From a virus, in the IMG/VR virus record IMGVR_UViG_3300025168_000277, positions 1-35,593 of that record: a stretch of 35,593 nucleotides of DNA; one strand, 5' to 3'. Position numbers and translations under genes: made by a program. Position 1 is the stretch's first letter, and each line of letters starts with the position of its first letter. Shown in pieces: positions 5,450 to 28,607 of this stretch. The notes below the pieces were generated by a model, which saw only the letters and a program-made list of their open reading frames with translations, was not told where the DNA came from and did not search any database.

Positions 5450-5451
5450 AC

Positions 5452-5873: not shown

Positions 5874-5887
5874 AGAGAACATTCTCT
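5874..5887. promoter_or_regulatory. Inverted repeat in the divergent intergenic region
   Basis: AGAGAA and TTCTCT flank a 2-base centre (CA) between the divergently oriented genes at 5844 (minus) and 5928 (plus). A dyad in this position could be an operator or lie within overlapping promoters. No clear sigma70 boxes are seen nearby. Confidence 0.35.
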
Positions 5888-5927
5888 TTAAGGGGTATAT
5901 AGAAATTATCAAAAGAAAGGATATGTT

Positions 5928-6324: not shown

Positions 6325-8157
6325 ATGAAAATATGTTATGATATAGAAACAGATGGTTTCGAAGCTAACGTAATATGGTGCTTAGTAGCACAAAATATGG
6401 AGACAGGAATTGTATACAAATACTCTGACCACGACGATAAATTACCTCCTATCAAAGATGGGGTATCACTACTCTCCAACGCCCAAGTACTTATCGGGCA
6501 TAACATCATTGGATTTGACAACGTGCAAGTTGACAAACTCTACGGAACCGACCTCAACTCAAAGAAATGTTACGACACATGGGTCATGTCACAAGTATTA
6601 CGATACAGAAGAACCCATAAGCAAGGACTTGCAGGGTGGGGAGAACATTTAAATAACTCTAAAATACATTATGATGACTGGTCAGGCTATAGTAAAGAAA
6701 TGCTTAGGTACTGTGTACAAGATGTTAAACTTAATGTGTTAGTATATAATGAATTACTAAAAGAATACAAAGCAATACACTCTAAATATCCATTAATAAA
6801 ACAAGGTTTAAAGATAGAGCATGATGCAGCAGTCTTCAATGCAAGAACTAAAGATAAAGGATGGAAGTTTGACACCGAACTAGCTAAATCTAATCTAAGA
6901 ATGATGGAAGAAAAGATGAATACTATATGTAGTACCATCGAACCTGAATTAGGTGATCACAAAGTATACATAGATAAAGAACCTAAGACACCTAAATACA
7001 AAAAGAATGGTGACTACACTATAGTGACTGCAAGAATACTATCAGAGTTCCTAAACTACCCTGTAAAATGTGAAGACACACATGTAATGGCAGCAGGTAC
7101 AGAATTTCAAAGATTTACTGTTAATGATATTACATTAGGTCAACTAGATCTAGTTAAAGAATGGTTGTTAACTAAGAAAGGATGGAAACCTGATGAATTT
7201 ACTAAGAAACGCATGCCGGACGGTAGTTGGATAACCACAACACCTAAACTTACCACCACATCGCTTTTAAAGCTCGGTGGGGTAGGTGAAATGATTGATG
7301 AGTACTATACACTAAGAAATAGAGCATCCGTTATACGTGGCTGGTTAGAGCAGGTAAAGCATGGTCGTATCCACGGAAATATGTGGGTTATAGGCACTCC
7401 TACGTTCAGAGCTAGGCATGAAGTAATCGTAAACTTACCTAGTATAACTGCAAAATATGGTAAAGAATTAAGAGAATTATTTGTAGCTGATAATGATATG
7501 GTTGTTGTTGGAGCAGATAGTAGTGGTAATCAACTACGTGGCCTGTGTCACTATGTAGATAACGATAAATTCACACACGAAGTATGCTTTGGTGATCAAC
7601 ACCAGAGAAATGCTGACTCACTTGGATGCACTAGAGGTATCGCTAAGAACTATCTATACGCCTACTTGTTTGGTGCTGGAGATGCAAAGCTAGGTCAAGT
7701 GCTTACTGGTAAATCAAATGCTAAAATTGGAAAAGAATCTAGAGTTAAATTCTCCAAAGGTATTAAAGGTCTAGATGAATTACGAAAATGGGTAACTAGT
7801 ACTTGGAACACAACGTATCACAATCAAGGTACTGGTTGGTTCCCTGCACTAGATGGTAGACCTGTGTTCGCTACTTCAGAACATCAATGTTTAAACTATC
7901 TACTACAAACAACTGAAGGTATTACCTGTAAAGCTGCATTATCATACTCTATGAATAAAATCAAAGAAGAAGGACTAGAAGCTGAACCAAGATTATTCTA
8001 TCATGATGAAATTGCATACGTATCATCAAAGAAAGATGCTAATCGTGTTGGAGAAATACTAAAAGAATCTTTCAAAGAAGCACCCAAAATGTTTGGTGTA
8101 ACATGTATGGATGGCGGTGACTACGTTGTAGGCTCAAGCTATGCGGATGTACATTAA
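6325..8157 (+). CDS. Family A (T7-like) DNA polymerase with 3'-5' exonuclease, 610 aa
   Basis: This is the replicative polymerase. The N-terminal proofreading exonuclease has ExoI D6/E8 (YDIETDG), ExoII D65 (GHNIIGFD) and ExoIII Y129/D133 (YCVQD). The polymerase domain has motif A with D398 (GADSSGNQLR), motif B R437-K441-Y445 (RGIAKNYLYAYLFGAGD) and motif C H560-D561-E562 (YHDE). All catalytic residues are present. It is shorter than T7 gp5 (about 704 aa), so the insertions are reduced; a thioredoxin-binding loop is not obvious. The HNH gene starts in its stop codon (TAATG). Family assignment is firm. Confidence 0.97.
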   Translation: MKICYDIETDGFEANVIWCLVAQNMETGIVYKYSDHDDKLPPIKDGVSLLSNAQVLIGHNIIGFDNVQVDKLYGTDLNSKKCYDTWVMSQVLRYRRTHKQGLAGWGEHLNNSKIHYDDWSGYSKEMLRYCVQDVKLNVLVYNELLKEYKAIHSKYPLIKQGLKIEHDAAVFNARTKDKGWKFDTELAKSNLRMMEEKMNTICSTIEPELGDHKVYIDKEPKTPKYKKNGDYTIVTARILSEFLNYPVKCEDTHVMAAGTEFQRFTVNDITLGQLDLVKEWLLTKKGWKPDEFTKKRMPDGSWITTTPKLTTTSLLKLGGVGEMIDEYYTLRNRASVIRGWLEQVKHGRIHGNMWVIGTPTFRARHEVIVNLPSITAKYGKELRELFVADNDMVVVGADSSGNQLRGLCHYVDNDKFTHEVCFGDQHQRNADSLGCTRGIAKNYLYAYLFGAGDAKLGQVLTGKSNAKIGKESRVKFSKGIKGLDELRKWVTSTWNTTYHNQGTGWFPALDGRPVFATSEHQCLNYLLQTTEGITCKAALSYSMNKIKEEGLEAEPRLFYHDEIAYVSSKKDANRVGEILKESFKEAPKMFGVTCMDGGDYVVGSSYADVH

Positions 8158-8501
8158 TGGCTAGTATGGGGTCACCTAAGAATGTAAAATATGGTGGATG
8201 TAGATACACTTCACGATGGGTAAGACAAAGATATCGTAAAGATATCATACACAGATGGAAAAGAATGAAAGGGTGTAAGAAATGTGGTTATAACGAGAAT
8301 GGAGTAGCTCTTGATCTTGACCATATAGAACCCGGAAAGAAAGCTTTTGCAATAGGTAATGGTAGATCCATATCATCTAAAACATGGCTTGTTGTAAAAG
8401 AAGAACTATCAAAATGTCAAGTACTATGTAAGAACTGTCATGCAGTAAAGACATACGTTAACCAAGATACTTATAAAGAAAGGAGTAAGTATGCAAGATA
8501 A
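8157..8501 (+). CDS. HNH endonuclease, 114 aa
   Basis: The protein has the Cys4-type HNH fold: CKKC (40-43), LDLDHIEP with D55-H56, and CKNCHAVK (91-98). These residues bind zinc and the catalytic metal. The basic N terminus would contact DNA. The gene sits between polymerase and exonuclease, overlapping the polymerase stop and the exonuclease start. T7 also has an HNH gene (5.3) after its polymerase, so it is probably a selfish homing endonuclease that settled there; a role in DNA metabolism is possible. Confidence 0.92.
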   Translation: MASMGSPKNVKYGGCRYTSRWVRQRYRKDIIHRWKRMKGCKKCGYNENGVALDLDHIEPGKKAFAIGNGRSISSKTWLVVKEELSKCQVLCKNCHAVKTYVNQDTYKERSKYAR

Positions 8502-11219: not shown

Positions 11220-13529
11220 ATGCAGCCTATTTATGAGGTTAGAGACTACCTCATTGAGAAAGTGAGGACTGTCAATAGTAAGAATCCAAAAGCAAATACA
11301 GGCGCAGTAATACTGCAATACAACAAGGACTACGAAACAAATATGGAAGGCTTTGTAAAGAATGCTCTCCAAACTATACAAATATTGTTCACAACCAGTA
11401 GTAGTTCTAATCCTGTAGGAACAGCCAGCTTAACTAATGTATCATTCAAAATAGGAAGAGAAATTAGTAAAGAACTAGGAAGAGAATTAACTTGGCTTAA
11501 TCAAATTAGACTAGGTGACCTGTTCGTAGAAGCATTCTATCAATGTGGTTTTGCAGATATATATTATCCAAAAACTAGAAACACTAGTTATATTATATCT
11601 GCAACAGCTAGATGGGTAGAGCTGGCAGACATACCCGGTATGTTCTCTAGAATAAACCTACTGCACACTTCAATCACACCACCAAGAAACATTAATGGTA
11701 TGATGCAGAAGTCAGGAGCAGTATTTTTCCCTGTAATAAAAGGTAAAACTGCAAAAGATTTTCTAGAGTTAGACAAACCATATATACGGTCAATAAATAA
11801 ACTGCAAAACTCTGGATGGAGAATAAACAGAAGAGTACTAGATGTTATAGAGAAATACAAAGAAGTATTCTCTAGCTCTATACCATTTAAAGACAACGAT
11901 GCTAAAGAATTAAAACGTAGAAGTCAGGCATTAGAATGGAGTTTCATTATAGCTAAAGCTAATATATTAAAAGATGAAGATATATTCTATCAATATCTAG
12001 ACGCTGACTACAGAGGACGATTGTACTACAAAGAACCTTTCCTAAACTATCAAGGATCAGATATATCTCGTGGTATGTTAAAGTTCGCAAGAGCTAAACC
12101 TATGACACAAGAAGGTCTGTATTGGTTAGCAGTACATACAGCAACAAGTTACAATGCAAGCTTTAGTATAGATAAAATACCAGAGTGGTGTGAATCTGAT
12201 TATGAATCATACCTAAAAGAAGAAGGACTAGATGATATATCCGTAGATAAAATGACATTAGACGATAGAGTACGATGGGTTAATGAAAATATGGATGCAA
12301 TTGTTAACTTAGGTACAGATGGTGAGATTGATTCTGAAGCAGAAAAGATAGTAACTTTCTTAGCTTGCTGTATTGAATGGTCTGACTACACTAAAGCTGT
12401 AAAAGATAAAAGAATACATATGTCTAACCTTCCAATACCTATCGATGGGTCTAACAACGGGTGGCAACACTTAGGTGCTATATCTAAAGATACTCAAACA
12501 GGTGATCTTGTTGGTCTTATACCTAGAGAAATACAGAAAGACTTCTATGTACAAACTGCAAAAGAACTAATTAATCTAACAGATGATGAAAGGTTAATAA
12601 GCATACTAAACATGATGCCTATGAAAAGTATACGTAAAGGTATTACTAAACGTGGCAGCATGACTCGTGCCTACTCAGCAGGTGCTAAGAAGATCGCTGA
12701 GAATATGTTCTTTGATTGTAAAGCAGAAGATTATCATACAGAATATGGTATAACTCAGGACGATTGCAACAAGTTTGCTAAGGTATTAATAAAAGCAATC
12801 AATAATGTATGTCCGGGTCCATTACAGACTATGAGTTACCTTCAAGAGCTTGCTAAGTATGAACTTGGTACTTTCAAGAAGGTTGATGAAGATGGAAAGA
12901 TAGCAGGACCAGAGTATAAAGAAGCTGTAAAGAGAAGATCAGAATTGTTCAAAACAAAAGACATAACTGATGAAGAAATTGATGAGTTAAATGAACTTGT
13001 AAAGTTTACATCAAAATACAAATCAATTCTTGTATACGGCAATGGTGCTGATAGAGTTAAATGGACTACCCCATCTGGATTCAGTGTTGAATATACAAAA
13101 TTCAGAATGGAACGTAAGAAAGGTAGAGGTACTATCGCAGGGTTCAAGAAAAACAGTGGTGGTCATCAAGGGATAAACCACGTTGCTCAGACAGCAACTA
13201 TATATCCTGACATACAAGGGTTCTTGTGTGGTATATCACCAAATGTAATACACTCACTCGATGCAAGTCACATGGCTCTAGTAATAGATCAGTGGCATGG
13301 AGAGTTTGGTGCAGTGCATGATAGCTTCTCCACCCATGCATGTGACGTTGAACACCTCATTGGTATAACCAAGAGAGCGTTCATAGACATGTATGATGTA
13401 GATAACTTCTACAACTGGCTCGAACAAGAGCTAATATCTGAAGACCATGAGGGTCTAGAGGTACAACAACCACAGTTAGGTACACTAGATGTCAATGACA
13501 TCCAAGAGTCCGACTACTTCTTCGCATAG
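11220..13529 (+). CDS. T7-like single-subunit RNA polymerase, 769 aa
   Basis: The polymerase shows the family motifs in order: GR element with R267 (DYRGRLYY), motif A D409 (IDGSNNGWQH), motif B K477 to Y485 (TKRGSMTRAYS), HSLDASH, and motif C D701 (VHDSF), ending SDYFFA, very like the T7 C terminus. Motif B has Ser486 where T7 has Gly. Y485 is the residue equivalent to T7 Y639 and is retained. It is shorter than T7 RNAP (883 aa), so the N-terminal promoter-binding region is reduced. It lies at the end of the replication block and probably transcribes later genes. Confidence 0.96.
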   Translation: MQPIYEVRDYLIEKVRTVNSKNPKANTGAVILQYNKDYETNMEGFVKNALQTIQILFTTSSSSNPVGTASLTNVSFKIGREISKELGRELTWLNQIRLGDLFVEAFYQCGFADIYYPKTRNTSYIISATARWVELADIPGMFSRINLLHTSITPPRNINGMMQKSGAVFFPVIKGKTAKDFLELDKPYIRSINKLQNSGWRINRRVLDVIEKYKEVFSSSIPFKDNDAKELKRRSQALEWSFIIAKANILKDEDIFYQYLDADYRGRLYYKEPFLNYQGSDISRGMLKFARAKPMTQEGLYWLAVHTATSYNASFSIDKIPEWCESDYESYLKEEGLDDISVDKMTLDDRVRWVNENMDAIVNLGTDGEIDSEAEKIVTFLACCIEWSDYTKAVKDKRIHMSNLPIPIDGSNNGWQHLGAISKDTQTGDLVGLIPREIQKDFYVQTAKELINLTDDERLISILNMMPMKSIRKGITKRGSMTRAYSAGAKKIAENMFFDCKAEDYHTEYGITQDDCNKFAKVLIKAINNVCPGPLQTMSYLQELAKYELGTFKKVDEDGKIAGPEYKEAVKRRSELFKTKDITDEEIDELNELVKFTSKYKSILVYGNGADRVKWTTPSGFSVEYTKFRMERKKGRGTIAGFKKNSGGHQGINHVAQTATIYPDIQGFLCGISPNVIHSLDASHMALVIDQWHGEFGAVHDSFSTHACDVEHLIGITKRAFIDMYDVDNFYNWLEQELISEDHEGLEVQQPQLGTLDVNDIQESDYFFA

Positions 13530-13788: not shown

Positions 13789-13836
13789 CCCCCACTAGGA
13801 ATCCTTAATTGGAAACTTAGTGGGGGTATTTTTTTT
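13789..13836. terminator. Bidirectional terminator between converging arms
   Basis: CCCCCACTAGG (13789-13799) pairs with CTTAGTGGGGG (13816-13826), about ten base pairs. A T-run follows on the plus side (13829-13836) and an A-run precedes the stem (13783-13788), giving a U-run on the minus transcript. It ends transcription of both the plus replication arm and the minus virion arm. Confidence 0.88.
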
Positions 13837-16800
13837 ATCCTGAATAATGATTAGCAATATTTTCCTTGCTACCATCTTGATTTATTAAAGTATAACCTGA
13901 TTTCTTCATAAGATCTAATGCATTCATCTTTTGAACATGAGTTTTTGTAGCCCAATTTCTAAGTCTAGAAAAGTTTTTACCATATAAGAAACTAAAGTAA
14001 ATAGGTATTAACTCTTGTAAAAATCCATAATTTAAATTGTTCACAGTACTAATATAATCTGGAGAGTTAACATCAAAATTATATTTAGCGTTACCTCCAA
14101 TAGATGACGAAATCAAATGCCTTATAGTTGATAAAGACTGAGTTTGTACATTGTTAGATTGCTCTAACCAATTTTTATTATGAGACATAAAACTTTTAAT
14201 ATTTATATTAAACTGAGATTCATGTCTAAACTTTGCACGAGAACCTAACCTTTTATCATACTCTCTACTGCCCTCAGGTACACCTGAATTATAACTAAAC
14301 AAATCTACAAAGAATCTTTTATCTTCATCAGTTAGACGTTCTTTAGGGTTTTGTTTGTTTAACCATTTCATATATGAAGTATGTTCTTTTTGAAGAGAAT
14401 TTAAAAGTTGTTGAAATATATTATAATTCCTTATAACATCTGTAATAGCTCTATTAACTTCCCTTAACACTGTATCAAAAGTTCCTATGTCAAGATAAAT
14501 AGCATCATAAACCATTTGCATAAATGGGTTACCACCACTGTTATGGCCTATCATTGAGAATGTTTTACCAGTAAGAATATGATTGAAGACTGCTGCATCA
14601 ATTGAATGTACAACTTTAGAAATTATTTTACTATGTAGATCACCACCTGACATAGAGATATCTACCCCTGAAACTGGATCAATATCTTCTTTATATGCTG
14701 TCATAGATCTTTTAGTTTCCCATTGACCAACAGTTAAAGATATTTTTTCAAATTTATTAGGGTCTTCATCACCTTTATCTTTCAATAATTTACTTTGTCT
14801 TGTCATTGAATATGAATTAGATGTTGAATCATCCCATCCACGAGATTCCCATAAACCTACAGTCAAAGGTGTATTATCAGGACTCATAAAGATTAACTCA
14901 GGTGTGTTCATAAGTTGATAAGATAAACTAATAGTTCTTAAAATAGATCTATATTCTCTTGCATCATCCCCTTGTAAAACTTCATAACTTTCCATGTACT
15001 TTTTATGTACCATATGTGCTACAGCATTTAAGTTATTATTTTTCTTTAAATTATCATAAGAAGTAACAAAAGGATGTGGGTTCCCAATTGTTTGGCTAGA
15101 TTTTAAATTTCGATATAAAATATCAATAGTATTTTTAACATCTGCTTTATAAGAATCACGCTCCTTGCCAAAAGCTTCAGTCATTACAACATGCTTTGCC
15201 ATAGTATTATTCTTACCTTCACCTCTAGTTTTAAAAACCTCAACAGATATATTATGAATATCAAGATAAGGCAATTCACTATTAGGTGATCCATCACTAT
15301 CATTAAATAAGTTTTTAGGATAATCCCAGTTAATCACTGGTTCACTTTCAAGAGTACTTAAAAGAATACTAATTAGCTGATCTCTTAAATCTCCATTATC
15401 AAGGATAGATATACCTTGAGATCTTAACATGCCTGTTTTATATAAGTTATCTATATTACCTATCAAGGCGGCAATAATAAAAGCACCACTTGTTTTACCA
15501 TCTATGTTTGACATAGTTGTTGAGTAAAAAGGAGTGTCAGTATTTTCCCTTTTCCATTTCCTATATTTAGAAAACTCTGATAAGTCCTTTAAAAAAGCAA
15601 TGGATTCTATACCTTTTTCTTTTATAGCAGAAATTAACTTAGCATCCAATTCATTATTAGGATCTAACGTAGGTGAGTTCATTCCAGTAAACACTGGATT
15701 TTTTACTAACTCACTAACATGACCTTGACCTGCTACAGTTTTTTCAGGTGGTGGGAATATACCATCCTTCATACCGATAAGATCTTCTCCAAAATTATCT
15801 ACTAAATCAAACACTTCAATAACTCTATCACCCATCTCTTCAAAAAGATTACTATTTATTTCTAAATTACGATCTCTTTCTTTAAATAATAAGTCATCTG
15901 TTTTAAGACCTGTCTTAATTACTTTACCATCTGATATTGTATAATACTCTGCAGCTTTAATAGCAAAATTTAATGCAAACATCTGCCTAAGAAGAGCTTC
16001 AGATCTATTACCTTTACGAATAGGATAGACAACAGGATTAGCTAATGCACCCCTTACTATTTTTAAAGCTTGAGGATTTAAATGAGTTACATCTAAATCT
16101 ATTCTACCAGAAAACCCTTGTATAGCTGTATTAAAATAAAACAAAAGACCTTGCGCTCTAGCAAGAGACCTTAGTACCCTTGCAACTTGTAAGACTGCTG
16201 CATCATATTCTTGTTCTACTGTTGGAATGCGAGAGTTTTTAGGTACACCAGACCTTCTATTAAAATACTCAGTTACTTGTTGGCTTTCAATGGATGCAGT
16301 TATTTCATTAATTTTTGCTTGACCTATTCCAAGAGCATCTAACTTCCATCTTTTTGACTCATCACTCTTTTCAAACACAGTTTTATAACCTTCACCATCT
16401 TGTCTTGATTTTAAAAAAGGTATAAGTAATTGAAATAAAATATATAAATTTTTATTATTTATTTTAAAAGAAATACTAGAAAGATTAAACCTAGCCTCTT
16501 CAGCTTTTTTAGATAAGCGTCCACCAATAGCACCACGAACGGAATTTAAATTATCACCCTTTAAAGGTGGTGTTAGTAAAATATCTTTAAACTCTTTACG
16601 CAATAAAAACCCACGAGCCATTCTAGATTCAGGATTATTAAATACCTTATGACCTAACTCTGTCAATGCAAACTTAATTGGAGATGATATCTCACCACCC
16701 TTACCCTTAACAGAAGGTATTCTTGTAAGTAAAGGGTACTTAATACCACCATTATTATCAGCTCTACCTTCCTGACCATGAACAGAATATAATAACTCTT

Positions 16801-17896
16801 GAGCATAATCACCTAGTGTTGTAGCTTCTTGAGAATTAGAGTCAGCCTCCTCATCTCTACCCTGTGATAACCAGAATTGTTTTATTGCTTCACCACCTAT
16901 CATACCATTGCTTCTATTCTTTGCAATTAATGTTTTATCTTTATAATCAACTTGCTGTTGAACAGTTAAGTTATCCTTATTAGCTAAAGCATCAGCATAC
17001 ATAGACTTAGCTATTGCATCTTCAGCTGCTACAAGTAAAAACGTCACAAGATCAGGATGTAAATACATCTTTTGTTTTCTAGCCTCTGCACCTTGTCTTT
17101 CAATTTCAACACCTTCTACTTTAACAGGTCTTAAAGTTAAAGGTGCATCAGTATTTTCTCTTACAATACCACCAACTGATTCAGCAGCAGCAAGATAACT
17201 ACCGGGTCTTACAGATTTATGTCTAGCAAATGCTAACCGTTTAACAGGATCACTAGCAATCTGTATCATAGGTTTACCATTTAAATTTTCTTGTATCCAC
17301 TCAGGATGTTCAGCAAGAAACGATTCAGATGTAGATTCATAAGGTATTGTAAGACCTGCACCTTCGTTTCTAGAGTATTCTATTCCATCTTGTATTCTGG
17401 AATCTAAACCAATCAAAGCATCACCATTAACTAATGCCTTAATTGGATTAAGATATTCATCAGCAGCATTTGCTTCATCTTGTTCTGGGTTCCAAGTGCC
17501 AGATTTTATAGCCTCACGTCTACCAGTCACTGTAGTTGCAGTAGGATCTAAATCTACCCCAGAACTCTCTGATATCTCAGTAGCATCAGCTTCAACAGGA
17601 CCATAAGGTGATCCCTCTCTAAAAGGATCTTCACCAAAATCAAAAGGAACTGAAGAAGCTATATCATATAAACTTCGATTTTCTTTTTCAGCTGCAAGGT
17701 CAGACTCCCTTTGAATATCCACAGATGTAGGTGAGTTTAGCTCATCTGTTTCATCCACTAAATACTCTTCTACAGTATCTGCTACAGCCTCTTTAGCTTT
17801 AGATCGATTTTTTAAATCTTGTAATAAATCTGGATGAAGTGTATTACCAAGAGCTGTTTCATTATCCACTACCCCACCAACTGATGTTTTAGCCAT
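13835..17896 (-). CDS. Putative virion-packaged single-subunit RNA polymerase, 1353 aa
   Basis: Visible motifs in family order: GFSGRIDLDVTHLNPQ with R598 (T7 R425 region), motif A IDGKTSG with D799 (T7 D537), motif B NTMAKHVVMTEAFG with K901 and F909 (T7 K631 and Y639), VVHSIDA near 1095-1101 (T7 HSQDGSH), and motif C VYDAIYLD with D1131 (T7 D812). Spacing between motifs is longer than in T7, as in the N4 virion polymerase. The first 550 residues or so match nothing I know and could hold a packaging or injection domain. It is the last gene of the virion operon, four bases after the 1501-aa ejection protein, so packaging and ejection with DNA is likely. F909 (codon TTT, checked) replaces the sugar-discriminating Tyr. 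The motif match is direct; packaging is inference. Confidence 0.72.
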   Translation of the reverse strand: MAKTSVGGVVDNETALGNTLHPDLLQDLKNRSKAKEAVADTVEEYLVDETDELNSPTSVDIQRESDLAAEKENRSLYDIASSVPFDFGEDPFREGSPYGPVEADATEISESSGVDLDPTATTVTGRREAIKSGTWNPEQDEANAADEYLNPIKALVNGDALIGLDSRIQDGIEYSRNEGAGLTIPYESTSESFLAEHPEWIQENLNGKPMIQIASDPVKRLAFARHKSVRPGSYLAAAESVGGIVRENTDAPLTLRPVKVEGVEIERQGAEARKQKMYLHPDLVTFLLVAAEDAIAKSMYADALANKDNLTVQQQVDYKDKTLIAKNRSNGMIGGEAIKQFWLSQGRDEEADSNSQEATTLGDYAQELLYSVHGQEGRADNNGGIKYPLLTRIPSVKGKGGEISSPIKFALTELGHKVFNNPESRMARGFLLRKEFKDILLTPPLKGDNLNSVRGAIGGRLSKKAEEARFNLSSISFKINNKNLYILFQLLIPFLKSRQDGEGYKTVFEKSDESKRWKLDALGIGQAKINEITASIESQQVTEYFNRRSGVPKNSRIPTVEQEYDAAVLQVARVLRSLARAQGLLFYFNTAIQGFSGRIDLDVTHLNPQALKIVRGALANPVVYPIRKGNRSEALLRQMFALNFAIKAAEYYTISDGKVIKTGLKTDDLLFKERDRNLEINSNLFEEMGDRVIEVFDLVDNFGEDLIGMKDGIFPPPEKTVAGQGHVSELVKNPVFTGMNSPTLDPNNELDAKLISAIKEKGIESIAFLKDLSEFSKYRKWKRENTDTPFYSTTMSNIDGKTSGAFIIAALIGNIDNLYKTGMLRSQGISILDNGDLRDQLISILLSTLESEPVINWDYPKNLFNDSDGSPNSELPYLDIHNISVEVFKTRGEGKNNTMAKHVVMTEAFGKERDSYKADVKNTIDILYRNLKSSQTIGNPHPFVTSYDNLKKNNNLNAVAHMVHKKYMESYEVLQGDDAREYRSILRTISLSYQLMNTPELIFMSPDNTPLTVGLWESRGWDDSTSNSYSMTRQSKLLKDKGDEDPNKFEKISLTVGQWETKRSMTAYKEDIDPVSGVDISMSGGDLHSKIISKVVHSIDAAVFNHILTGKTFSMIGHNSGGNPFMQMVYDAIYLDIGTFDTVLREVNRAITDVIRNYNIFQQLLNSLQKEHTSYMKWLNKQNPKERLTDEDKRFFVDLFSYNSGVPEGSREYDKRLGSRAKFRHESQFNINIKSFMSHNKNWLEQSNNVQTQSLSTIRHLISSSIGGNAKYNFDVNSPDYISTVNNLNYGFLQELIPIYFSFLYGKNFSRLRNWATKTHVQKMNALDLMKKSGYTLINQDGSKENIANHYSG

Positions 17897-17899
17897 ATC

Positions 17900-20800
17900 T
17901 TACTCCTTGAAATTTAGGTTAGTTGTTAAGTCACCTATCTCGTTTGTTAATCTATTAATAGATCCAATGTACGGTGTTGCTTTAGAAAGTTTCTTAAGAC
18001 CACTACCAACATCACCAGTTATTAAATTTTCTCCTGCACCTATTAATCTTTCAAGGTTACCAAGTCCGGGAGATTCTCTAGATACTGCTCCAAATAAATA
18101 TTCAATCATAGTATCACCTTTATTACCCTGAGGGTACAAAGGCGCAAACTGATCTAGTATTCTTTCGTATGTACCTAATAATCCAGAAGACCTAACACCA
18201 CGTTGAAGGTAACCTGACGTATCTAAGTAAGGATTACTACGACTACCTTCAAGTGGATTAACCACACCCATGAAGTTGTCTTCATCTTCATACTTCAACA
18301 TGTCCTTAATAGCTTGAGAAGCAAATCCCAACATGATCATAGTTGCCATCATAGAGTATGCACTATACTTCATAGTTGGTGAACCACGTTTAAGGTACTC
18401 ACCATATAACCTTGGCAAGTGACTAGCTGTAAACGTAGCCATAAACCCTTGAAACTGTGTAAACAATGCGTACCTAGGATCTTGATAGATTAAAGGTCTA
18501 TTCATAGCCATAGGTAATGCCACTGCTTCATTAACAAAATTAAATGTAGCTTCTCTTAGCTGACTGTTTCTATATTCCATTTCTTTTTCTGTTAATATAT
18601 CTAGACCACCTTTCTGCTCCATGTCTCCAATTGAATTATTAGTTTCAATAATTTTCTTTCTTGCAGATTCCTTTTCTTCTAAGGTAGTAGTATCACTAAG
18701 GAGTATTTTATACTCTGCTATATTAGCATGTTTCATATTTAAATCAAATCTTTTATAAAAATCTACAAAAGTTTCAACATCTAATCCTAAGTTTCTTAAT
18801 GACTCTTTAGCTTGAGTTACTTCACGAGTTACCTTATCAACTTCTTCTCTATTTAATGTAAGGGTTCCGGGTTCTTCATCAATATCTCTTTTTAAATCCA
18901 TTGAATTAACAAAATTAGAGATTGATTCTCTACCTAACTCTGTATTTATATCAATAAAAGGATCAACATCAAAAACATAACCGTAATCAACAATCAGTTT
19001 TAATTTTTCACTAATAAAGTCAGCTGCAATAGAAGCACGAACAGCACGAGTGTAGTTTGTCCACCCTTGTAAACCATTCCATTTAAAATATGATTGCATA
19101 ATATTTCTTTGCCAAGCATTAATTTCTGTAGCACCAACTGTAGTCGATGCACCTAAGCCACTTTTAATATAACCCAGATCACGTATAATCCTTTGACCTC
19201 TTGCTAACTTAGCAGATGTATCAAAGTTTTTACCACCGGGTATATCATTAGATATTTGTTTCATACCAGACTTAATCATTGCAGCAAACTCTTGACCTTG
19301 AGTTTTTAAAAGACCATTAACATCTTCAGGTTTTAAATGCCTACCAGTTAAAGCAAGCTCAACAAAAGAAGATATAGTAGATAAAGATAAGCCAGCTAAA
19401 GCTGTAAACATTAAGAACGATCTTTGTATTTGTTCAAGTTTCTTACCTGCCTCAGTAGTTGCACGTTTAAAATTTCCAGACTCAGCTAACAGTGCGTTAG
19501 ATAACTCAAAAGCTAATTTATCAATTAAAATTTGAGCTTTCTCTTCACCATAAACCTTAGCTAAATTTTCTTGAGACTGATTAAGTAATTCATTTACAAT
19601 CCTACCATCTTTACCTATAAACATAGAGTGTGATAAGTGTCTTGCAGCTGTAGCAGAGTAGCGTGTTAAATTAGTAAACACATCTTGCTCTAAGAACTCT
19701 TTAAACTCTGGTCTTTCGGAAAGTTTTAAAGTTCTTTTCTTAGTAAAGCTAGGGTTAAGATCACCCTTTACCATTGAAAAAGCTTCATCAAGATCAACTG
19801 TTCCAGTGGTAATTATCTTATCAATCACAGCATCAATCTCAGTTTCTGAATAATTTATATCTTTTCTAATACTCATTAATAATTTTTTAAATAACTTTTT
19901 CTTTTTCCTAACACTCCTTACACTTAAAGTTTTAAATACACTACCGTATTGTGGTGTATACTCTAATGAACCTCTCTCTCTACCTTGTGTATCTAATCTA
20001 TTACTCTTAAGGTTTTGTTCATTAATTTTTTTAAACACAGTGTCAGTAGCTTTATTAATCTGATTAATTAATTCTATATATGTTTCTCTGTTCTTTAAAT
20101 CCAATGGTATTAAAGTTTCATCAAACACAACACTAGTAGTACCATCAGGATTCTTTACAGTTTTTTTAGCATTATCCCATACATCATTAAACTTTTCAGA
20201 TGCAGCCTTCTGTTTCTTCCTAGTTGAATTACCTTCAATTACTGTATTATAAAAAGTAGACTGATCCATAACATCACTCATAATTTCAGATTGTAAATGT
20301 ACCTTTATAGACTCCCATGCTGCACCACTAAAAGATTTTTGATTAGCGTTACCAAAGATATCTTTCAACATTCTTCCGGGAACTTCTGCAACTGCTAAAA
20401 ACTCTTTTGTAAAACTAGACGTAGATATACTCTGGAAAAATTTAGGAAACATTTTTAAACTATCAATAACTCTATTTTGAAAAGCCATTTTACCAAACCT
20501 TTGCATATGTCTTTGAGACTTATCATTAAGGTCATCTGTATTAATTTTATTCTTTGGGTTTTGTAAGTTTCCTTTTTCTATATTTAACTTAGCTTTTGCT
20601 TTAGCATCTGCATATAACTTTGCTTTAGCTGTCTCAGATCTACCATCCCACTCACCTTTAGCTATACTTTTTTTCTTTGCAATACTAAAAAGTCTAAAAG
20701 CTTCATCATCAATTGCTTTATTATTTACTTGAGCTAAGTCATCTGCTTCGGATGCATTGTCTTGATTCGTTGGCATACCTTTTAAATTATTCTTTTTAAT

Positions 20801-22405
20801 ATATTCATCAGCCCATGCACTAGCATCTGATATCTCAGAACCATCTCCTTCTTGCGCGCCATAGGCAATGTTAGCCCATCCTACATGATTTGATGCCTGA
20901 AAAGGCACACTAAATCCAAGACCTAAAGCTCCACCAGTAATCGCAGCTGTCATCATTCTTTTATTTAATTCATCAAAGTCAAAGACTTTATCAGATCCAG
21001 CAGTGGCTGCAAGATAGTTAGTAGCTTCTTGACCAAGCTCTGTTAATCCCTCACCAGCTGATGCAGCTCCTGATTTTGAAGCTATAGATTTAAAAAGTTC
21101 TTTCCCTCTTATCTGTTCTTTAGCTACCTTAGCAGCATCACCTGCAAAACCTACAAGTTCTCGCTTAGTTGCAGTAGCTATCTGAGCCTGTGCAACTTCC
21201 CTAGGGACACCCCTTGCAATCAATTCTAATAGAGCAGTATCTAAAAGTTTCTTAGGCATAACACCTTTACTAAATACAGCTGCTAAACCTAATCTATCTA
21301 AGGTTGCTTGAACAACACCAGACATCATAGCAATTTTTGGATCTCTATTACCAGACATCTCATTATAAGTTTGACCTGCATACACAGCAGAGGTAGCAGA
21401 TATACCAAGAGGTAATGCTAAAGTAGCACCTATCAAAGGAGTGGCTACATTAGCAACAGCTAAAGTACCTAAAGCTAAAGCCATGTAAGGTACAGACATA
21501 GCTGCGTTATTAGCAAGCCATATCATAGTATCATATGCACCATCAATATCTCTGTAGTCTGTTAACCTTGTACCATACTCACCTATTTTGGCACGATACC
21601 TTTCAACACCTTCTTCCCCTATATCACTCAATCTCTCTGCGTCTAGTAGATCACCAGATGCTTCTAAGAAACCATACATACCTTCCATGACTCCCATCCA
21701 ACCATGTTCCCAAGAGTCGGTAATAGGGTTTAAAGATTCATTGGTTACAGTACGATCATTCTTTCTTGTTTGAGTAAGAGTTTGGGAGTAATAGTTCCCT
21801 TGTTCTAATTGGTTTGCAGCTGCTAATTCCTTTTCATCAAATGCAACTTTCTTTATTCCTTGTGAGAACTCTCCCTCTTTTATTCTAGCAGAAAGCATTT
21901 GATTCCTAGCTAAATCATAGCTTGTGGTCTCAGCACTTCCCATACTATAGAACCTTTCTAAAGCCCCTACACTATGTTTAGCTACATCTAAATCTGAAGA
22001 GTATGCAGAAGTACCTAATATTCCCTCTCTTAAAATCTTATCTTTAAAACTTTGACCACTACTATTTACTAAGTCAGCCAATGTTCTTCCATAGAAATCT
22101 TTTTTAATATTTCCCTTACCATCAGTAAGAGGTCTAATATTAGTAAAGCCATTATCATTTGCTAGCTTTGACATAATAGCTGTAGCTGCTGAACCTCCAG
22201 CAGTTCCTTCTTTAAAAGTACCATCATCAAGTATTTTTGAAACTTCGGGAGTATCAAACCCAACTAGCCTATACCTAACACCTCCTTTGTCAACAGTATC
22301 TCCGTCAACAAAGTAAGGCATGGTATTAGGAGATTGAATGTAATCATTCGGGTCACCAAGCTGTGAGCTTTCAAACCTCTCATTTACTGCATCTATCAAA
22401 CTCAT
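17900..22405 (-). CDS. Giant ejection protein with N-terminal SNase-type nuclease, 1501 aa
   Basis: Residues about 28-150 form a staphylococcal-nuclease-like domain: FVDGDTV (D34, D36), RLVGFDTPE (R46, D51, T52, E54) and DFYGRTLADL (R107) supply every catalytic residue of that family. A long hydrophobic stretch (about 296-345), further hydrophobic segments near the middle and C terminus (LMFTALAGLSLSTISSF, MMATMIMLGFASQAI) and a Gly-rich tail ending near LITGDVGSGLKKLSK suit a membrane-inserting internal virion protein of the T7 gp16 kind. Such proteins form the DNA-ejection channel. It sits between the murein-hydrolase and polymerase genes. An added nuclease could act on host DNA or RNA after entry; it must be restrained in the virion. 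The domain call is strong, the ejection role inferred. Confidence 0.78.
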   Translation of the reverse strand: MSLIDAVNERFESSQLGDPNDYIQSPNTMPYFVDGDTVDKGGVRYRLVGFDTPEVSKILDDGTFKEGTAGGSAATAIMSKLANDNGFTNIRPLTDGKGNIKKDFYGRTLADLVNSSGQSFKDKILREGILGTSAYSSDLDVAKHSVGALERFYSMGSAETTSYDLARNQMLSARIKEGEFSQGIKKVAFDEKELAAANQLEQGNYYSQTLTQTRKNDRTVTNESLNPITDSWEHGWMGVMEGMYGFLEASGDLLDAERLSDIGEEGVERYRAKIGEYGTRLTDYRDIDGAYDTMIWLANNAAMSVPYMALALGTLAVANVATPLIGATLALPLGISATSAVYAGQTYNEMSGNRDPKIAMMSGVVQATLDRLGLAAVFSKGVMPKKLLDTALLELIARGVPREVAQAQIATATKRELVGFAGDAAKVAKEQIRGKELFKSIASKSGAASAGEGLTELGQEATNYLAATAGSDKVFDFDELNKRMMTAAITGGALGLGFSVPFQASNHVGWANIAYGAQEGDGSEISDASAWADEYIKKNNLKGMPTNQDNASEADDLAQVNNKAIDDEAFRLFSIAKKKSIAKGEWDGRSETAKAKLYADAKAKAKLNIEKGNLQNPKNKINTDDLNDKSQRHMQRFGKMAFQNRVIDSLKMFPKFFQSISTSSFTKEFLAVAEVPGRMLKDIFGNANQKSFSGAAWESIKVHLQSEIMSDVMDQSTFYNTVIEGNSTRKKQKAASEKFNDVWDNAKKTVKNPDGTTSVVFDETLIPLDLKNRETYIELINQINKATDTVFKKINEQNLKSNRLDTQGRERGSLEYTPQYGSVFKTLSVRSVRKKKKLFKKLLMSIRKDINYSETEIDAVIDKIITTGTVDLDEAFSMVKGDLNPSFTKKRTLKLSERPEFKEFLEQDVFTNLTRYSATAARHLSHSMFIGKDGRIVNELLNQSQENLAKVYGEEKAQILIDKLAFELSNALLAESGNFKRATTEAGKKLEQIQRSFLMFTALAGLSLSTISSFVELALTGRHLKPEDVNGLLKTQGQEFAAMIKSGMKQISNDIPGGKNFDTSAKLARGQRIIRDLGYIKSGLGASTTVGATEINAWQRNIMQSYFKWNGLQGWTNYTRAVRASIAADFISEKLKLIVDYGYVFDVDPFIDINTELGRESISNFVNSMDLKRDIDEEPGTLTLNREEVDKVTREVTQAKESLRNLGLDVETFVDFYKRFDLNMKHANIAEYKILLSDTTTLEEKESARKKIIETNNSIGDMEQKGGLDILTEKEMEYRNSQLREATFNFVNEAVALPMAMNRPLIYQDPRYALFTQFQGFMATFTASHLPRLYGEYLKRGSPTMKYSAYSMMATMIMLGFASQAIKDMLKYEDEDNFMGVVNPLEGSRSNPYLDTSGYLQRGVRSSGLLGTYERILDQFAPLYPQGNKGDTMIEYLFGAVSRESPGLGNLERLIGAGENLITGDVGSGLKKLSKATPYIGSINRLTNEIGDLTTNLNFKE

Positions 22406-22428
22406 TTGTCTCTCCTAATTTAAGTCTA

Positions 22429-25400
22429 TTAATTAAACCTTTCACTGTACATAAGGTACTCTAAGTATTTTAAGAACTCACTTTTCCCTGCGTGAGCTTT
22501 ACCTTTACTATCTCTCCAGTCTTCTATGTTCTTAGCTATTGGAGCATTATTACCCTTATCAGAACCTTGGTAATCTCTGTTAGGCCCTGCTCCCTCAACA
22601 AAGTTTTCTCTCCAAGTATTCCAATCTGGAAACATTACCTCATCTAAAGGTTTATTTTTATTAATCTCTCTTATTTTTTCAGACACAAGTGCAAGAAGAC
22701 CAGATGAAAATACTCCCAAATCTTTATCATGAAGATTTGGAAACAGATAAGTAGTTACTCCATCCCTAGTTTTTTGCATCTTTTGAAGTTTTAAAAATGT
22801 ATTTGTAATATCACTAGGCTTATCATACTGAGCTGAAGAAGCATGAGTATATGTAGTAGCATGTCGTTTAGATTTTTCAGCTGGCTTAGTCATAAACAAA
22901 GACTCGTCTTGACCTATTTTAATTTTAATCCAAGCAGCATTCATAAATGAACTATCTACATCCATACCTGCAATGCCTCTAATTGTAGACGCTTTACCTG
23001 ACCCACCTGTTTTTATATGATGTTTGTATGCTTCTGCCATAGCTTGTTCATATATTTCTAGAACCACAGCCGAAGGAAGGTTGTACCTCTGACCAAAGTG
23101 AGCTAAATTTATTGCTTCTGCTGTAGGTGCTACTTTAGAAAAGGTGTTAAAGGTCTTATCACTATCTTTACCAGATACCTGTTTAGTATCATCATACGTG
23201 TACGTGTCTAAATAATCATCTACCGAACCTTTATACGTAGTAGTAGCTGATGCTGAAAAGTCTAGATAATCTGTTGATTGAAAGTCTCTAGCTATAACAG
23301 AATCATCAGTCCAAAGTGGATCCATAGGATTAATCTTCACTTTATCATTCTTCTTTGTCTTTGGATTATAAATAGAAGCCATATATCCAGACTGTTTTTT
23401 ATCACCTGTACCAGTAGACCAATATACAGCTGTATATTTACCAACCTTATTACCATTTTTATCTAGTCGGTAGTAAACCTTAGTCTTTGATGCATCATAA
23501 TTTGTATTATTTAACTCACTAAATCTTACTAAGTCATCTGTATCTTGACTCCTATTATATAACTCAAGACTGGGTTTAGTAAATACATTATAACTTGCTA
23601 ATTTTTTAACATGGTTATTCCACATATCTAACTTATTAACGTAAGCAACTTGGGTCATGTAGTCTTCACCAGCAGCTTTAATAGCTTGGTTACCTGTAGC
23701 ACCAGTTGCTCTGTATGCTGCGTAAATCATAGCTGCTCTTGCTAAAGACTTACCATCAAACACATCATCAAATGCAGCTTTAATAACACCTTCAGCTGCA
23801 TCTAAAATTCCTTTCCACTTAGTAGGTTTTTCAGCTTTATCTATTTCCATCTGTTGTAAAGCAGCTTTAGTTGATCCCCCAAAAGGATCATTACCAAAAA
23901 TCTTTGCTCTCTCTGGTTCAGATCCCGGTTCTTGTGGGTTATCATAAGCAATTAATTTATTTCTTACATCTGCTTCAGAGCCATGTATTAAAGAAGGTTG
24001 AGCTTTATTAATCCTTTCCATACTAGATGTTTTAAATGCATCAGATACATCAGCAATCCCTTTAACTTTTTCAATATATGCATCTATACTTTTTACTTGA
24101 GGACTATCTTCTGCAAGACCTTGATCAATATACTCTTGTCTTTTATCTAACGCTTTATCAATAACTACTTTATTCTTTTCTATTCCAATTATTGCGTTTC
24201 TAATATTTTTACTTTCAAATATTTGAAGTCTTGCCTTAGAGTCTTCTACTTTTTTATCTAGCTTTTCACGATCAGACGTACTAAGATCGGTATTATATTG
24301 ACTAATTAAATCAGCAAGTGTTTTCTCTTCTGATCTTAAATAATCTAAAGAAGATCTTATTGGAGTTTCTTTGCTTATAAGAGAACCACCGGGTCCGGGT
24401 ATTCCTTCTGAACTAATCGGAGGTTTAAAATCTACTGAGTCTTCAGAAATATATGGGTTTTGAATATCTTTTAATAGTTCAGGTGTATTCTCAGGAACTA
24501 TATCTGTAAATAAATCGCTACTATAAATAGGGTTGTTTTTTAGCAAGTTACCACCACCCAACCAAGGAGCAACTTTGCGTTCTTTAGTAAGAAAATTCCA
24601 CCATTTATTAGAGGACTTTTCTTCTTGAGCGTCTATTGGTATTGGGCCTTCTGGTGATGAAGTTGTACCTTCAGTAACTAATGTGTTCTGTCCTGTATTA
24701 GGAACAGCACCACCGTAAGGACTATCTACAAAATTCTTACCATCCCAGTTAGAAAACTGTTGCTGCCGCGTTTGATTAAGACCGGGCATTATTCTTCTTT
24801 CATTAGTCTCTATATTTTCCTGAATAGGTGTATCATTTTTACCAGTGTAAAACTCCCATAAATCTTTTTTCTCTGGAGTCTCTTCAACTTCAGGCGAGGG
24901 GATACCATAAGGGAATCCATGAGAATCTAATCTTGGTGGGTAAGAATGTAGCTGCCTACCATAAGGATCACCGGGTCCACCTAAGACGTTATTACGAGCC
25001 TGAGAAGAACCATACAACATAGCTTCATCAGTCATCTGATCTCTACCTAGTTGATTAACTTTATGCTTTGTAAAACCACCTGACTTATTACCCTTTAGTA
25101 ATCCTTGTATTAATGTTTGTATAGAGCTAGCTCCAGTATTTGCGTACATAGGGGTATCCTCCATAGCTGGTACGTTTAAAAATGAGTTCTCTACAGAATC
25201 TCTTGTTGATTTCATAATATTATTTATATGATCTTCAGCGTTAGATGTTGGTACATCTAAAGTTCTAACCTTTGGTATAAGAGACTTGTAGCCTACGATA
25301 GGGTTTTGATAACCTAATACTTTATCATCACTAGAGAAAACATGATTACCAATTTTTCTTCTATTATGTGTTTTACTCCACCATTCCATAGGATAACCTT

Positions 25401-26043
25401 CACCTTCTAGCTTATCACTACCTTCAAATCCATAAAAGTTATCATCATCAGGTCTTAAAAAATAGTGAGCACCATTAGTAGGATCTACAATATCACCTTT
25501 TATCATACCTTCAAGAATAGCTTTAGATCTTAAGTATTCTTCTGACTCTTCTATCTTATCTTTATACCAATGATAAGTTGGATTATTTGATCTTGGATTA
25601 GCTGATGAAAATTGGTATCTAATTTCTCCTTTTTTGTTTTTTTTATTTTTATTAATTATATCTTTTATACTATTACCACCCCATTGCTTTTGATCTGCTT
25701 TCTGTCTATTTAAAACAGTATACATAACACCAGCTCTACCTTCGTCATCTTCTCCAACAGACTCTCCTAAAGACATTCTAATTAATAAGTCTTTATCATC
25801 TTCAGATAAAACATACTTACCATCATTAGCAGTAAGGTATGGTATATTACCACCTGCATTATACTTTGGTACATCACCTTTAACCATTTTATTTTCTGCA
25901 GCTCTTTGCTCTAAACCTGCATCATTCATAGCTTGTAGTTGTGGTCCAAACATCTGAGAAGCTTCTTTATTTATTACCCATTCACCCGGAGTTAGCATCG
26001 CAGGGATGCTATCTCTGTTCGTAGGATCTGTAAGGTCTCTCAT
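22429..26043 (-). CDS. Internal virion protein with SleB-type murein hydrolase domain, 1204 aa
   Basis: Residues 84-240 match the SleB cell-wall hydrolase domain: IRMSLGESVGEDDEGRAGVMY with E94, QFSSANPR, DPTNGAHYFLRPDD, and a closing IGNHVFSS. SleB enzymes are lytic transglycosylases; in a virion protein the domain would open the cell wall during DNA entry. The N terminus has DSIPAMLTPGEWVINKEA (11-28), a motif usual in tail tape-measure proteins. A charged coiled-coil section lies near 560-690 and an Ala-rich amphipathic section near 750-800. It is followed at 24 bases by the SNase-fusion gene. No holin or free endolysin is visible, so it may also aid exit, but entry is more likely. Confidence 0.82.
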   Translation of the reverse strand: MRDLTDPTNRDSIPAMLTPGEWVINKEASQMFGPQLQAMNDAGLEQRAAENKMVKGDVPKYNAGGNIPYLTANDGKYVLSEDDKDLLIRMSLGESVGEDDEGRAGVMYTVLNRQKADQKQWGGNSIKDIINKNKKNKKGEIRYQFSSANPRSNNPTYHWYKDKIEESEEYLRSKAILEGMIKGDIVDPTNGAHYFLRPDDDNFYGFEGSDKLEGEGYPMEWWSKTHNRRKIGNHVFSSDDKVLGYQNPIVGYKSLIPKVRTLDVPTSNAEDHINNIMKSTRDSVENSFLNVPAMEDTPMYANTGASSIQTLIQGLLKGNKSGGFTKHKVNQLGRDQMTDEAMLYGSSQARNNVLGGPGDPYGRQLHSYPPRLDSHGFPYGIPSPEVEETPEKKDLWEFYTGKNDTPIQENIETNERRIMPGLNQTRQQQFSNWDGKNFVDSPYGGAVPNTGQNTLVTEGTTSSPEGPIPIDAQEEKSSNKWWNFLTKERKVAPWLGGGNLLKNNPIYSSDLFTDIVPENTPELLKDIQNPYISEDSVDFKPPISSEGIPGPGGSLISKETPIRSSLDYLRSEEKTLADLISQYNTDLSTSDREKLDKKVEDSKARLQIFESKNIRNAIIGIEKNKVVIDKALDKRQEYIDQGLAEDSPQVKSIDAYIEKVKGIADVSDAFKTSSMERINKAQPSLIHGSEADVRNKLIAYDNPQEPGSEPERAKIFGNDPFGGSTKAALQQMEIDKAEKPTKWKGILDAAEGVIKAAFDDVFDGKSLARAAMIYAAYRATGATGNQAIKAAGEDYMTQVAYVNKLDMWNNHVKKLASYNVFTKPSLELYNRSQDTDDLVRFSELNNTNYDASKTKVYYRLDKNGNKVGKYTAVYWSTGTGDKKQSGYMASIYNPKTKKNDKVKINPMDPLWTDDSVIARDFQSTDYLDFSASATTTYKGSVDDYLDTYTYDDTKQVSGKDSDKTFNTFSKVAPTAEAINLAHFGQRYNLPSAVVLEIYEQAMAEAYKHHIKTGGSGKASTIRGIAGMDVDSSFMNAAWIKIKIGQDESLFMTKPAEKSKRHATTYTHASSAQYDKPSDITNTFLKLQKMQKTRDGVTTYLFPNLHDKDLGVFSSGLLALVSEKIREINKNKPLDEVMFPDWNTWRENFVEGAGPNRDYQGSDKGNNAPIAKNIEDWRDSKGKAHAGKSEFLKYLEYLMYSERFN

Positions 26044-26052: not shown

Positions 26053-27879
26053 CTAGTTGTCTAGTTTTATTTTACCATAGTCAGTAAACCTATGGATAGG
26101 CGTTCTTGCTAGAATAGGATCTACTATTCTTTCTCTAATACTTAATGGTGCTTCACCCGGAAATGAACGTACCATATGTTTACCATAATATCTTCTCAAT
26201 TGTGAATCAGCTGCTTCAGCTTGATTGTAATAGTCATACGCATAAGCATGTGCTTTAGCTTGAGGTGTCATCATCTGACTACGACCAAGAGGTCCACCAT
26301 GATTATACTCTACAGGACCACCACTATTATACCCACATCCACAATTAGATTTACCACAAGATGGACATACTTTACCACCTTTGTTAAGGCCAAGTGATTC
26401 TTTTCTTAATTCTTCTAACTTAAATTGTCTACGAGCTTCTACTTCCTCTCTACCCATACCTAAAGGAGCACCCTGTACTACTGAACCAGCTTCAACGTCA
26501 GCCTCTGACATGTTCATCATTGGACGATACTTTGGGATAAGTGATATTTCAGGAGCATTGTATATACTTTCTTGTATAACAGGTTTAGATAAATGAGGAG
26601 CATAGTAATCTTCGTATTGACTTTGATTAAACATCATTAGATCATTAGGATTTCTGTATTTATTTGAATTAGGATCTTTAAAATCAGAAATTAAATTATC
26701 TCTTGCTATTCTATCAGCACCACCTAAAGGTGACATAGGCATACCTATTGCATTAACACCATACCCTTGAGCTTCTGCTACTAACGCATCAGGTATTCTA
26801 ATGTTTTCATTACTACCATCTATATGAGATGTAGTTCCTGAAAAATTCATAGGTTTCTTTTTAGTTTCACCTTGTATCTTTGCAATCTTTGCATCGTTTA
26901 AAGCATCTTTCCTACGTTGTTCAGCATTAGATTCACTTTGTTTTAAAGCATGATCTAACTGGCTCTTAGCATCTTCATTAGAATAAGGAGATAGTGGACC
27001 TATCATATCTGGTGGTCCACCTTTAAACCTAACATCATCAATTCTTTCTGTAGGGAAATCCCAAGATTGTCCCTGTGTACCAGCCCATAAATTAGATAAC
27101 CAATCTTTAGTTACTGGCATTGCTGATTGGTATGGATGAGCTTCTGGGACAATTGATTCAGTTACACCTTGATTATTTTTATTCAACCATGCTTGTCTTA
27201 ACCTTTCTAATTCAGCTGCTCTTGCAGATTCTACCTCATCTCTTCCACCTACTGGCATACCTGTATTCATTCCAATTCTTCCACCATTATTTGCAAGATG
27301 TTTAATATGTCCACCACCACCACCAAGTTTAGATGCAAGTAACCCACCACCTATTAATAGTCCTAGAGGTGCTAAGGGTCCAAGTGCTGCCATTGCTGGT
27401 AATGCTCCTGCTAACCCTGCTGCTGTAGATCCACCTGCTACTGCACCTGCTGTCATAGCTGGAACTGCTGCTGGGGCTGCTGCTCCAGCTAATGCTGCAC
27501 CTGTTCCGACATTCCCTGTTATAGCTGCTGCTGCTCCGGGAGCAATTCCTAACCCTGCAGGTGCTGCTGCTGCACCTGTTTGTAATGCTGCTGTTTGTAA
27601 AGCCGAAGGAGCTACTGAAGAACCTATAGCTGCTTGGGTAGTAGCAGATTGAGCTGTTTTTCCTACACCAGAACTTATAGATGGTTTGTTAAGAAACTCC
27701 GCACCCTTTTCCCAAGCTGCATCAAAACCCTCACCTAATTTATCAGTTGCCTTTGATTTCACAGCACCTTTAACTATCTCAGTCAATGGTCCATCCTTAA
27801 CATTAGGATCATGATGTTCAAAACCAATAGGATTATTTCCATACTGCATTTGATTACTCTTATGTTTTTGAAAAGCCAT
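26053..27879 (-). CDS. Putative internal virion (ejection) protein, 608 aa
   Basis: The start overlaps the previous stop (TAATG). After a charged N terminus, residues about 80-185 are extremely Ala/Gly/Pro-rich and hydrophobic (for example AAPAAVPAMTAGAVAGG, LAPLGLLIGGGLLASK), a likely membrane-inserting segment. Two related Arg/Glu helices (GRDEVESARAAELERLRQ and GREEVEARRQFKLEELRK) occur in the middle and late regions. Near residue 515 lies CPSCGKSNCGCG, a compact Cys cluster flanked by GG repeats. The features and the position ahead of the SleB protein fit an ejection protein. No family name can be given. Confidence 0.65.
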   Translation of the reverse strand: MAFQKHKSNQMQYGNNPIGFEHHDPNVKDGPLTEIVKGAVKSKATDKLGEGFDAAWEKGAEFLNKPSISSGVGKTAQSATTQAAIGSSVAPSALQTAALQTGAAAAPAGLGIAPGAAAAITGNVGTGAALAGAAAPAAVPAMTAGAVAGGSTAAGLAGALPAMAALGPLAPLGLLIGGGLLASKLGGGGGHIKHLANNGGRIGMNTGMPVGGRDEVESARAAELERLRQAWLNKNNQGVTESIVPEAHPYQSAMPVTKDWLSNLWAGTQGQSWDFPTERIDDVRFKGGPPDMIGPLSPYSNEDAKSQLDHALKQSESNAEQRRKDALNDAKIAKIQGETKKKPMNFSGTTSHIDGSNENIRIPDALVAEAQGYGVNAIGMPMSPLGGADRIARDNLISDFKDPNSNKYRNPNDLMMFNQSQYEDYYAPHLSKPVIQESIYNAPEISLIPKYRPMMNMSEADVEAGSVVQGAPLGMGREEVEARRQFKLEELRKESLGLNKGGKVCPSCGKSNCGCGYNSGGPVEYNHGGPLGRSQMMTPQAKAHAYAYDYYNQAEAADSQLRRYYGKHMVRSFPGEAPLSIRERIVDPILARTPIHRFTDYGKIKLDN

Positions 27880-28607
27880 TACTTACCTCCTCCGATTGTC
27901 TCGGAATGTTTACCTGTTTGACCATATAGACTAAACATTTTCTGTGCAGCATCAAAGTCTTTATCGAGTACCTTTTGATTATAATCCATACCATAAGATC
28001 CAACATCGCCAAGCGCGTCGGCATTAGATAGATAACTATCTGTAATACCTTTATGAGACCCAATGAAAGATCCAGCACCACCAAGTGCATCTGTACGCTG
28101 ACGAGCTAATTCTTCTGAAGTTTTATCATAAGCAATATTACCCATAGCACCTTCACGCATCATCTCTCCACGAGCGGAACCAAGACCACCAGACATAGCA
28201 GCATCAGTACTAAGACCTCCCATTCTACCTTTTTGTTCTCTTGAAATTTGTTCTTTAATTTGATTTTGAACAACATCATATTGGTCTGCTCCAAAAATAC
28301 CTGTTTGATTCTTTTGATCTTCATAGATACTCATAGCCTCTTCAGCTTTACCTGTTAGAATATTCCCATCAGCAACAGCTTTTTCTTTCATATCTAAAGC
28401 TTCTTGCATTTCAGGTGTGATATCAGCTACCCGACCAACTTTACCTTCATCATCTAATGCTTGCATTTTTTCTAATTGTGTCGTAAGGTATGGCATAAAT
28501 TCTTTCGGTATAGTAGTAGTAGTGGTTTTATCTCCACCCCCACCCCAACAAACCATAGCGTTAGGGTGTTGTGTCCATTTCGTTGGACTTAACGGATTAC
28601 AAATCAT
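27879..28607 (-). CDS. Putative internal virion protein (gp14-like in position), 242 aa
   Basis: AAGGAG lies eight bases before the start on the minus strand. The N-terminal part has CWGGGGDK and a Thr run (TTTTT), then a long helical, Gly/Ala/Met-rich body (GGLSTDAAMSGGLGSARGEMM), with a Gly-rich tail. Small internal core proteins of T7-type podoviruses have this composition and lie just upstream of the large ejection proteins, which is its position here. No catalytic motif. The role is inferred from context. Confidence 0.55.
   Translation of the reverse strand: MICNPLSPTKWTQHPNAMVCWGGGGDKTTTTTIPKEFMPYLTTQLEKMQALDDEGKVGRVADITPEMQEALDMKEKAVADGNILTGKAEEAMSIYEDQKNQTGIFGADQYDVVQNQIKEQISREQKGRMGGLSTDAAMSGGLGSARGEMMREGAMGNIAYDKTSEELARQRTDALGGAGSFIGSHKGITDSYLSNADALGDVGSYGMDYNQKVLDKDFDAAQKMFSLYGQTGKHSETIGGGK

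Follow-up and report, generated by a model that had tools for sequence, protein, structure and literature searches.

The window analyzed in this study is the whole of a 35,593-base linear virus record, an incomplete genome fragment, in which three consecutive large genes lie on the minus strand (Table 1). These open reading frames (ORFs) are real, with the lengths and positions given in the initial annotation, and are read end to end in the order SleB protein, SNase protein and RNA polymerase (RNAP). Their tight spacing also holds, but each spacer is one base shorter than the 24 and 4 bases first reported, with 23 bases between the SleB and SNase genes and 3 between the SNase and RNAP genes by ORF coordinates. 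The boundary of a three-gene kit does not stand, as only 9 bases separate the SleB gene from the preceding gene, which encodes a 608-aa protein, and the minus-strand block extends upstream as far as a tail gene. Because the operon runs on unbroken in this direction, a limit of three genes is arbitrary, and the triad is the distal end of the late (particle) operon, not a self-contained unit.

Table 1. Positions and supporting evidence for the genes and domains of the virus record considered here.
Feature	Coordinates	Strand	Evidence
T7-like RNAP, 769 aa, replication module	11220..13529	+	PF00940 9e-56
Predicted compact virion RNAP, 1353 aa	13835..17896	-	Motifs, AF2 model, Schitoviridae profile match
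SNase-domain long helical protein, 1501 aa	17900..22405	-	SNase residues, PDB SNase, PHROG 6958
SNase domain, residues 20-150 of the 1501-aa protein	21956..22348	-	Family alignment, pLDDT
Wall-hydrolase scaffold protein with SleB, 1204 aa	22429..26043	-	PF07486, PHROG endolysin, relatives' slot
Gly/Ala-rich 608-aa protein, possible further ejection protein	26053..27879	-	Position, hydropathy, relatives
242-aa protein, possible further ejection protein	27879..28607	-	Position, weak PHROG 4287 match of counterpart
Tail protein, 743 aa	33246..35477	-	LUZ24-type matches, PHROG 3287

Upstream of the triad, the 608-aa protein has a hydrophobic segment at residues 156-183 (hydropathy), and relatives also have a gene at its place. 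The counterpart of the 242-aa protein in locus L103 showed a weak match to PHROG 4287, DNA ejection protein (E 0.021), and the tail protein matched PHROG 3287 (6.8e-58) and particle and tail proteins of LUZ24-type phages at ~31% identity. The T7-like RNAP gene is convergent with the triad, and no terminator-like site was found between the two convergent polymerases of the window. Elsewhere in the record, a tRNA-Trp gene (anticodon CCA) is located at the left end (44-117), and an HNH endonuclease gene (8157-8501), possibly a homing element, comes straight after the DNA polymerase gene.

The SleB domain was correctly recognized in the initial annotation, residues 97-236 of the protein matching PF07486 (Hydrolase_2) at E 1.1e-9, with a score of 39.3 bits against a curated cut-off of 27. 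The same protein matched a PHROG endolysin (1.3e-14) and carries the N-terminal sequence PAMLTPGEWV, a tape-measure-type motif. Among 18 members of the hydrolase family, the window protein included, the N-terminal half held Phage_lysozyme in eight, SleB in four, SLT in two and Phage_lysozyme2 in one; a loose look for PF07486 over the genomes of relatives gave one, which is an under-count when set against these direct scans (4/18 with SleB). In Roseobacter phage CRP-7, the nearest isolate, a pesticin-type lysozyme occupies this slot on the common scaffold. These domain matches indicate that the hydrolase domain is exchanged among at least four folds, whilst its place in the gene order is fixed.

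The SNase assignment of the second protein was weak in Pfam (E 0.01, below the cut-off), but among PDB entries the family profile picked out staphylococcal nuclease (1.7e-5), and D36, T37, R46, E54 and R107 are invariant in 52 of 52 relatives. SNase residues D21, R35, E43 and R87 correspond to D36, R46, E54 and R107 of the window protein, and the position equivalent to SNase D40 is variable, with Asp in 34 of the 52. The conservation of these catalytic residues indicates that the protein has an intact nuclease site. The membrane segments described for it were also recovered, as two hydrophobic stretches at residues 302-342 and 997-1015. The protein matched PHROG 6958, a virion structural protein (2.3e-13), and a relative matched a virion structural protein of Pseudomonas phage KPP25 (E 2e-10); this protein, ORF088, is homologous to part of the SNase protein family, but is ~2000 aa long and has no RNAP gene after it. 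A model of residues 1-1150 had a mean pLDDT of 57 and was best in the SNase region and a few helical stretches, with a pLDDT of about 67-88 across most of residues 31-150. This low-confidence model gave no channel-like fold match, and since it is too weak for fold matching, no claim of a channel is made for the SNase protein.

The RNAP was more difficult to place. As a single query, the 1353-aa protein had no match in Pfam, the PDB or phage records, and showed a weak match to PHROG 2206, virion RNA polymerase (E 0.0012). Because single-sequence searches gave so little, family profiles were needed. With the T7-like RNAP gene as bait, 80 IMG/VR loci were fetched, and in most of them a relative of this polymerase lies directly convergent with the bait gene. 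These relatives are about 1120-1700 aa long and mostly 19-29% identical to the window RNAP. The RNAP family profile likewise had no sequence match in the PDB. Of 37 family members, 21 matched PHROG 414, RNA polymerase. The signature of single-subunit RNAPs (Asp in motif A, Lys and Gly in motif B, Asp in motif C) is present in the window protein as D799-G-K-T-S-G, K901...F909-G910 and D1131, alongside R598, and the motifs DGKT(N/S)G (A), K...M..(Y/F)G (B) and (Y/F)DA (C) are kept together with R598 in the relatives with few exceptions. In 60 nonredundant sequences pooled from two fetches, R598, D799, G910 and D1131 were present in all 60 and K901 in 59. The position of T7 Tyr639 is taken by F909 in the window and by Tyr in the other 59 sequences; in T7 RNAP, the Y639F change relaxes ribose selection.

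An AF2 model of residues 200-1353 (pLDDT 71, pTM 0.74) has the right-hand polymerase fold, and its top structure matches in the PDB were all single-subunit RNAPs (T7, mitochondrial and N4). Re-alignment gave a Z of 27.5 over 552 residues for T7 and 22 over 613 for N4 vRNAP, scores that do not separate the T7 type from the N4 type. On motifs and model together, the 1353-aa protein is a genuine single-subunit RNA polymerase, as had been proposed. Profile comparison does distinguish the two types, with a P of 1.4e-6 for the vRNAP of Schitoviridae against 0.024 for the T7-like partner in the same genomes (control, N4 vRNAP against T7-like, P 0.08), and the motif DGxTNG is common to the N4 type and most members of the family. 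The sequence evidence therefore favours a polymerase nearer to the N4 virion enzyme than to T7-like enzymes. The RNAP is under purifying selection, with dN/dS of 0.07-0.35 in close pairs.

Several further features of the RNAP family were observed. Relatives in loci L144, L150, L151, L152 and L154 are 1450-1700 aa long, with extra stretches at differing places that are possibly further inserted domains. In loci L003, L004, L007, L009 and L042, the T7-like RNAP is 86-89% identical to that of the window whereas the adjacent virion-type RNAP is 24-29% identical, and this contrast at the convergent junction may reflect cassette exchange or very fast change. In the RNAPs of L022, L025 and L029, a NADAR-like domain of ~130-150 aa (PF08719, below the Pfam cut-off) is inserted after motif B and before motif C. 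NADAR enzymes undo the guanine ADP-ribosylation made by DarT-type toxins (PMC11125620), so this insert could be a pre-loaded counter-defence.

Conservation of the gene order, which the initial annotation had offered as a check, was followed in ocean contigs using the SNase-protein alignment, so that the polymerase was not selected for. One scan found 188 relatives of the SNase protein in IMG/VR viral contigs, of which 80 were kept along with three from bacterial assemblies. The RNAP gene directly follows the nuclease gene in all 80 contigs with room for it, and in 52 of 55 loci with room the gene immediately before the nuclease gene is a hydrolase-scaffold gene, although the independent count is smaller, since some contigs recur across assemblies. 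The nuclease-RNAP junction ranges from an overlap of ~150 bases (open frames) to a gap of 16 bases. In 76 of the 83, the triad is faced by a T7-like RNAP, the remaining seven being cut-off contigs or loci. That a constant SNase stands beside a freely swapped wall hydrolase suggests a core role in entry for the nuclease.

The initial annotation regarded the triad as distinct from the entry systems of both T7 and N4. T7 gp14-gp16 are late internal virion proteins, one of which has a wall hydrolase, and T7 is not known to package an RNA polymerase or to carry an SNase. By these features, the window resembles T7 in that one of its predicted late internal proteins bears a wall hydrolase, but differs in that the set includes an RNAP and an SNase. 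The N4 genes are read from gp52 through gp51 to gp50, and this last gene, encoding the vRNAP, closes a late minus-strand block that faces the replication genes. The window shares with N4 the succession of putative ejection proteins and virion RNAP, its place at the end of the late minus-strand block, convergent with the replication module, and, by sequence profile, a single-subunit RNAP of the N4 subtype. It differs in that its RNAP is 1353 aa long as opposed to 3500 aa, without the ~3500-aa build of N- and C-terminal domains around the polymerase, in that a wall hydrolase and an SNase are added, and in that the partner polymerase is one T7-like chain, whereas N4 RNAPII is two-subunit. The distinction from N4 is thus borne out for size, wall hydrolase, nuclease and partner polymerase, but not for position, order or polymerase type. 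The three N4 proteins are ejected and build a conduit, with no wall hydrolase evident among them (PMC12633501).

A survey of N4-like phages in IMG/VR discarded hits of <2500 aa and required the motif ExDGxxxG (PMC10654107). The window RNAP is below this length and has NIDGKTSG at motif A, and by the criteria of this one family survey the window is not a member of Schitoviridae. The compact RNAP family described here would have escaped the survey because of this filter. In phage CRP-7, gp33, gp34 and gp35 (1235, 1368 and 1223 aa, sizes like those of the triad) have the same position and order beside a T7-like RNAP and are annotated as hypothetical, the CRP-7 paper mentioning the T7-like RNAP alone (PMC6918029). 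The SNase residues are present in gp34 and the lysozyme in gp35, but the kinship of gp33 with the window RNAP is distant (E 0.005), and its catalytic Lys is replaced by Arg. In motif B of gp33 (L084, 17862-21566), Lys and Arg are swapped in comparison with T7 R627/K631. Thermus phage P23-45 also has a packed RNAP that transcribes the first genes, another phage RNAP included (PMC10770324), which is the role that the window RNAP would have if packed, but the P23-45 enzyme is homologous to cellular RNAPs and is fused to the tape measure protein.

Taken with the gene position, the kinship of the SNase protein with a virion structural protein and the N4 parallel, these comparisons suggest that the triad is an ejection cassette of the N4 kind, whose compact virion polymerase initiates early transcription, a reading to which we give a probability of about 0.72. 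The three proteins would be packaged into the particle and leave it when a cell is infected, probably being injected together. The SleB-bearing protein would cut peptidoglycan, and the SNase/helical protein would enter the envelope and form or line part of the DNA conduit. The compact RNAP would then enter the cell with the first DNA and transcribe the early plus-strand genes, among them that of the T7-like polymerase, which in turn would drive middle and late transcription. The gene order may then mirror the order of entry events, as the initial annotation had it, and packing for the next infection is what makes most sense of an RNAP made late from a structural operon. Against the cassette are the divergent CRP-7 gp33 with its Arg, the weak SNase-protein model, the incompleteness of the genome fragment, and the lack of N4-like hairpins: the early region (118-6300) showed no excess of 3-base-loop hairpins and no enrichment of repeated motifs.

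The alternative that survives best, although improbable, is that the RNAP is a late-made, unpackaged second polymerase for some late genes, with the SleB and SNase proteins alone being ejected. We infer the packaging in the preferred reading, the genome already has a T7-like RNAP, and two phage RNAPs dividing labour are known from P23-45 (PMC10770324). However, the RNAP gene is always the last of the structural block, overlapping the nuclease gene or within 16 bases of it in every contig with room (80/80), and in both kinship and gene position it corresponds to the N4 virion enzyme. It is less likely again that the cassette is ejected with an RNAP that transcribes weakly or not at all, its scaffold serving mainly as a structural element or an effector (through the NADAR insert, for instance). 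The NADAR-like inserts of three relatives, the Phe of the window RNAP in place of T7 Tyr639, the Lys to Arg change in CRP-7 and the rapid divergence of the RNAP would agree with such a role, yet the catalytic Asp, Lys and Gly are near-invariant over 60 sequences, most of them 19-29% identical to that of the window, and catalysis is therefore hard to dispense with. Very unlikely is a set of tail or lysis proteins with no entry role, in which lysis is carried out by the SleB gene product and its two neighbours have structural roles. Domains of the SleB and lysozyme types do often bear the annotation endolysin, but the hydrolase sits within a ~1000-1450-aa scaffold with a tape-measure-type motif beside tail genes, and at least two relatives have, by eye, a separate small lysozyme-like ORF elsewhere (L095, 13167-13607; L098, 14029-14469).

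To return to the ejection cassette, its components are already known, but the mostly open-access literature searched contains no description of their combination, of so small a polymerase, of the invariant SNase or of the ocean-wide set. More tentatively, and at somewhat less than even odds, the loci may represent a widespread group of ocean podoviruses that begin infection with a compact N4-type RNAP of their own, packed and delivered by an ejection set with a swappable hydrolase, an invariant nuclease and, in some cases, a NADAR de-ADP-ribosylation domain within the polymerase as counter-defence loaded in advance. Packed single-subunit RNAPs are known mainly from N4-like phages, in which the enzyme has ~3500 residues. 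If the cassette is as proposed, a compact packed RNAP in a widespread marine lineage would show the minimum needed for injection and transcription, and infection independent of the host polymerase would become testable in an existing isolate, CRP-7.
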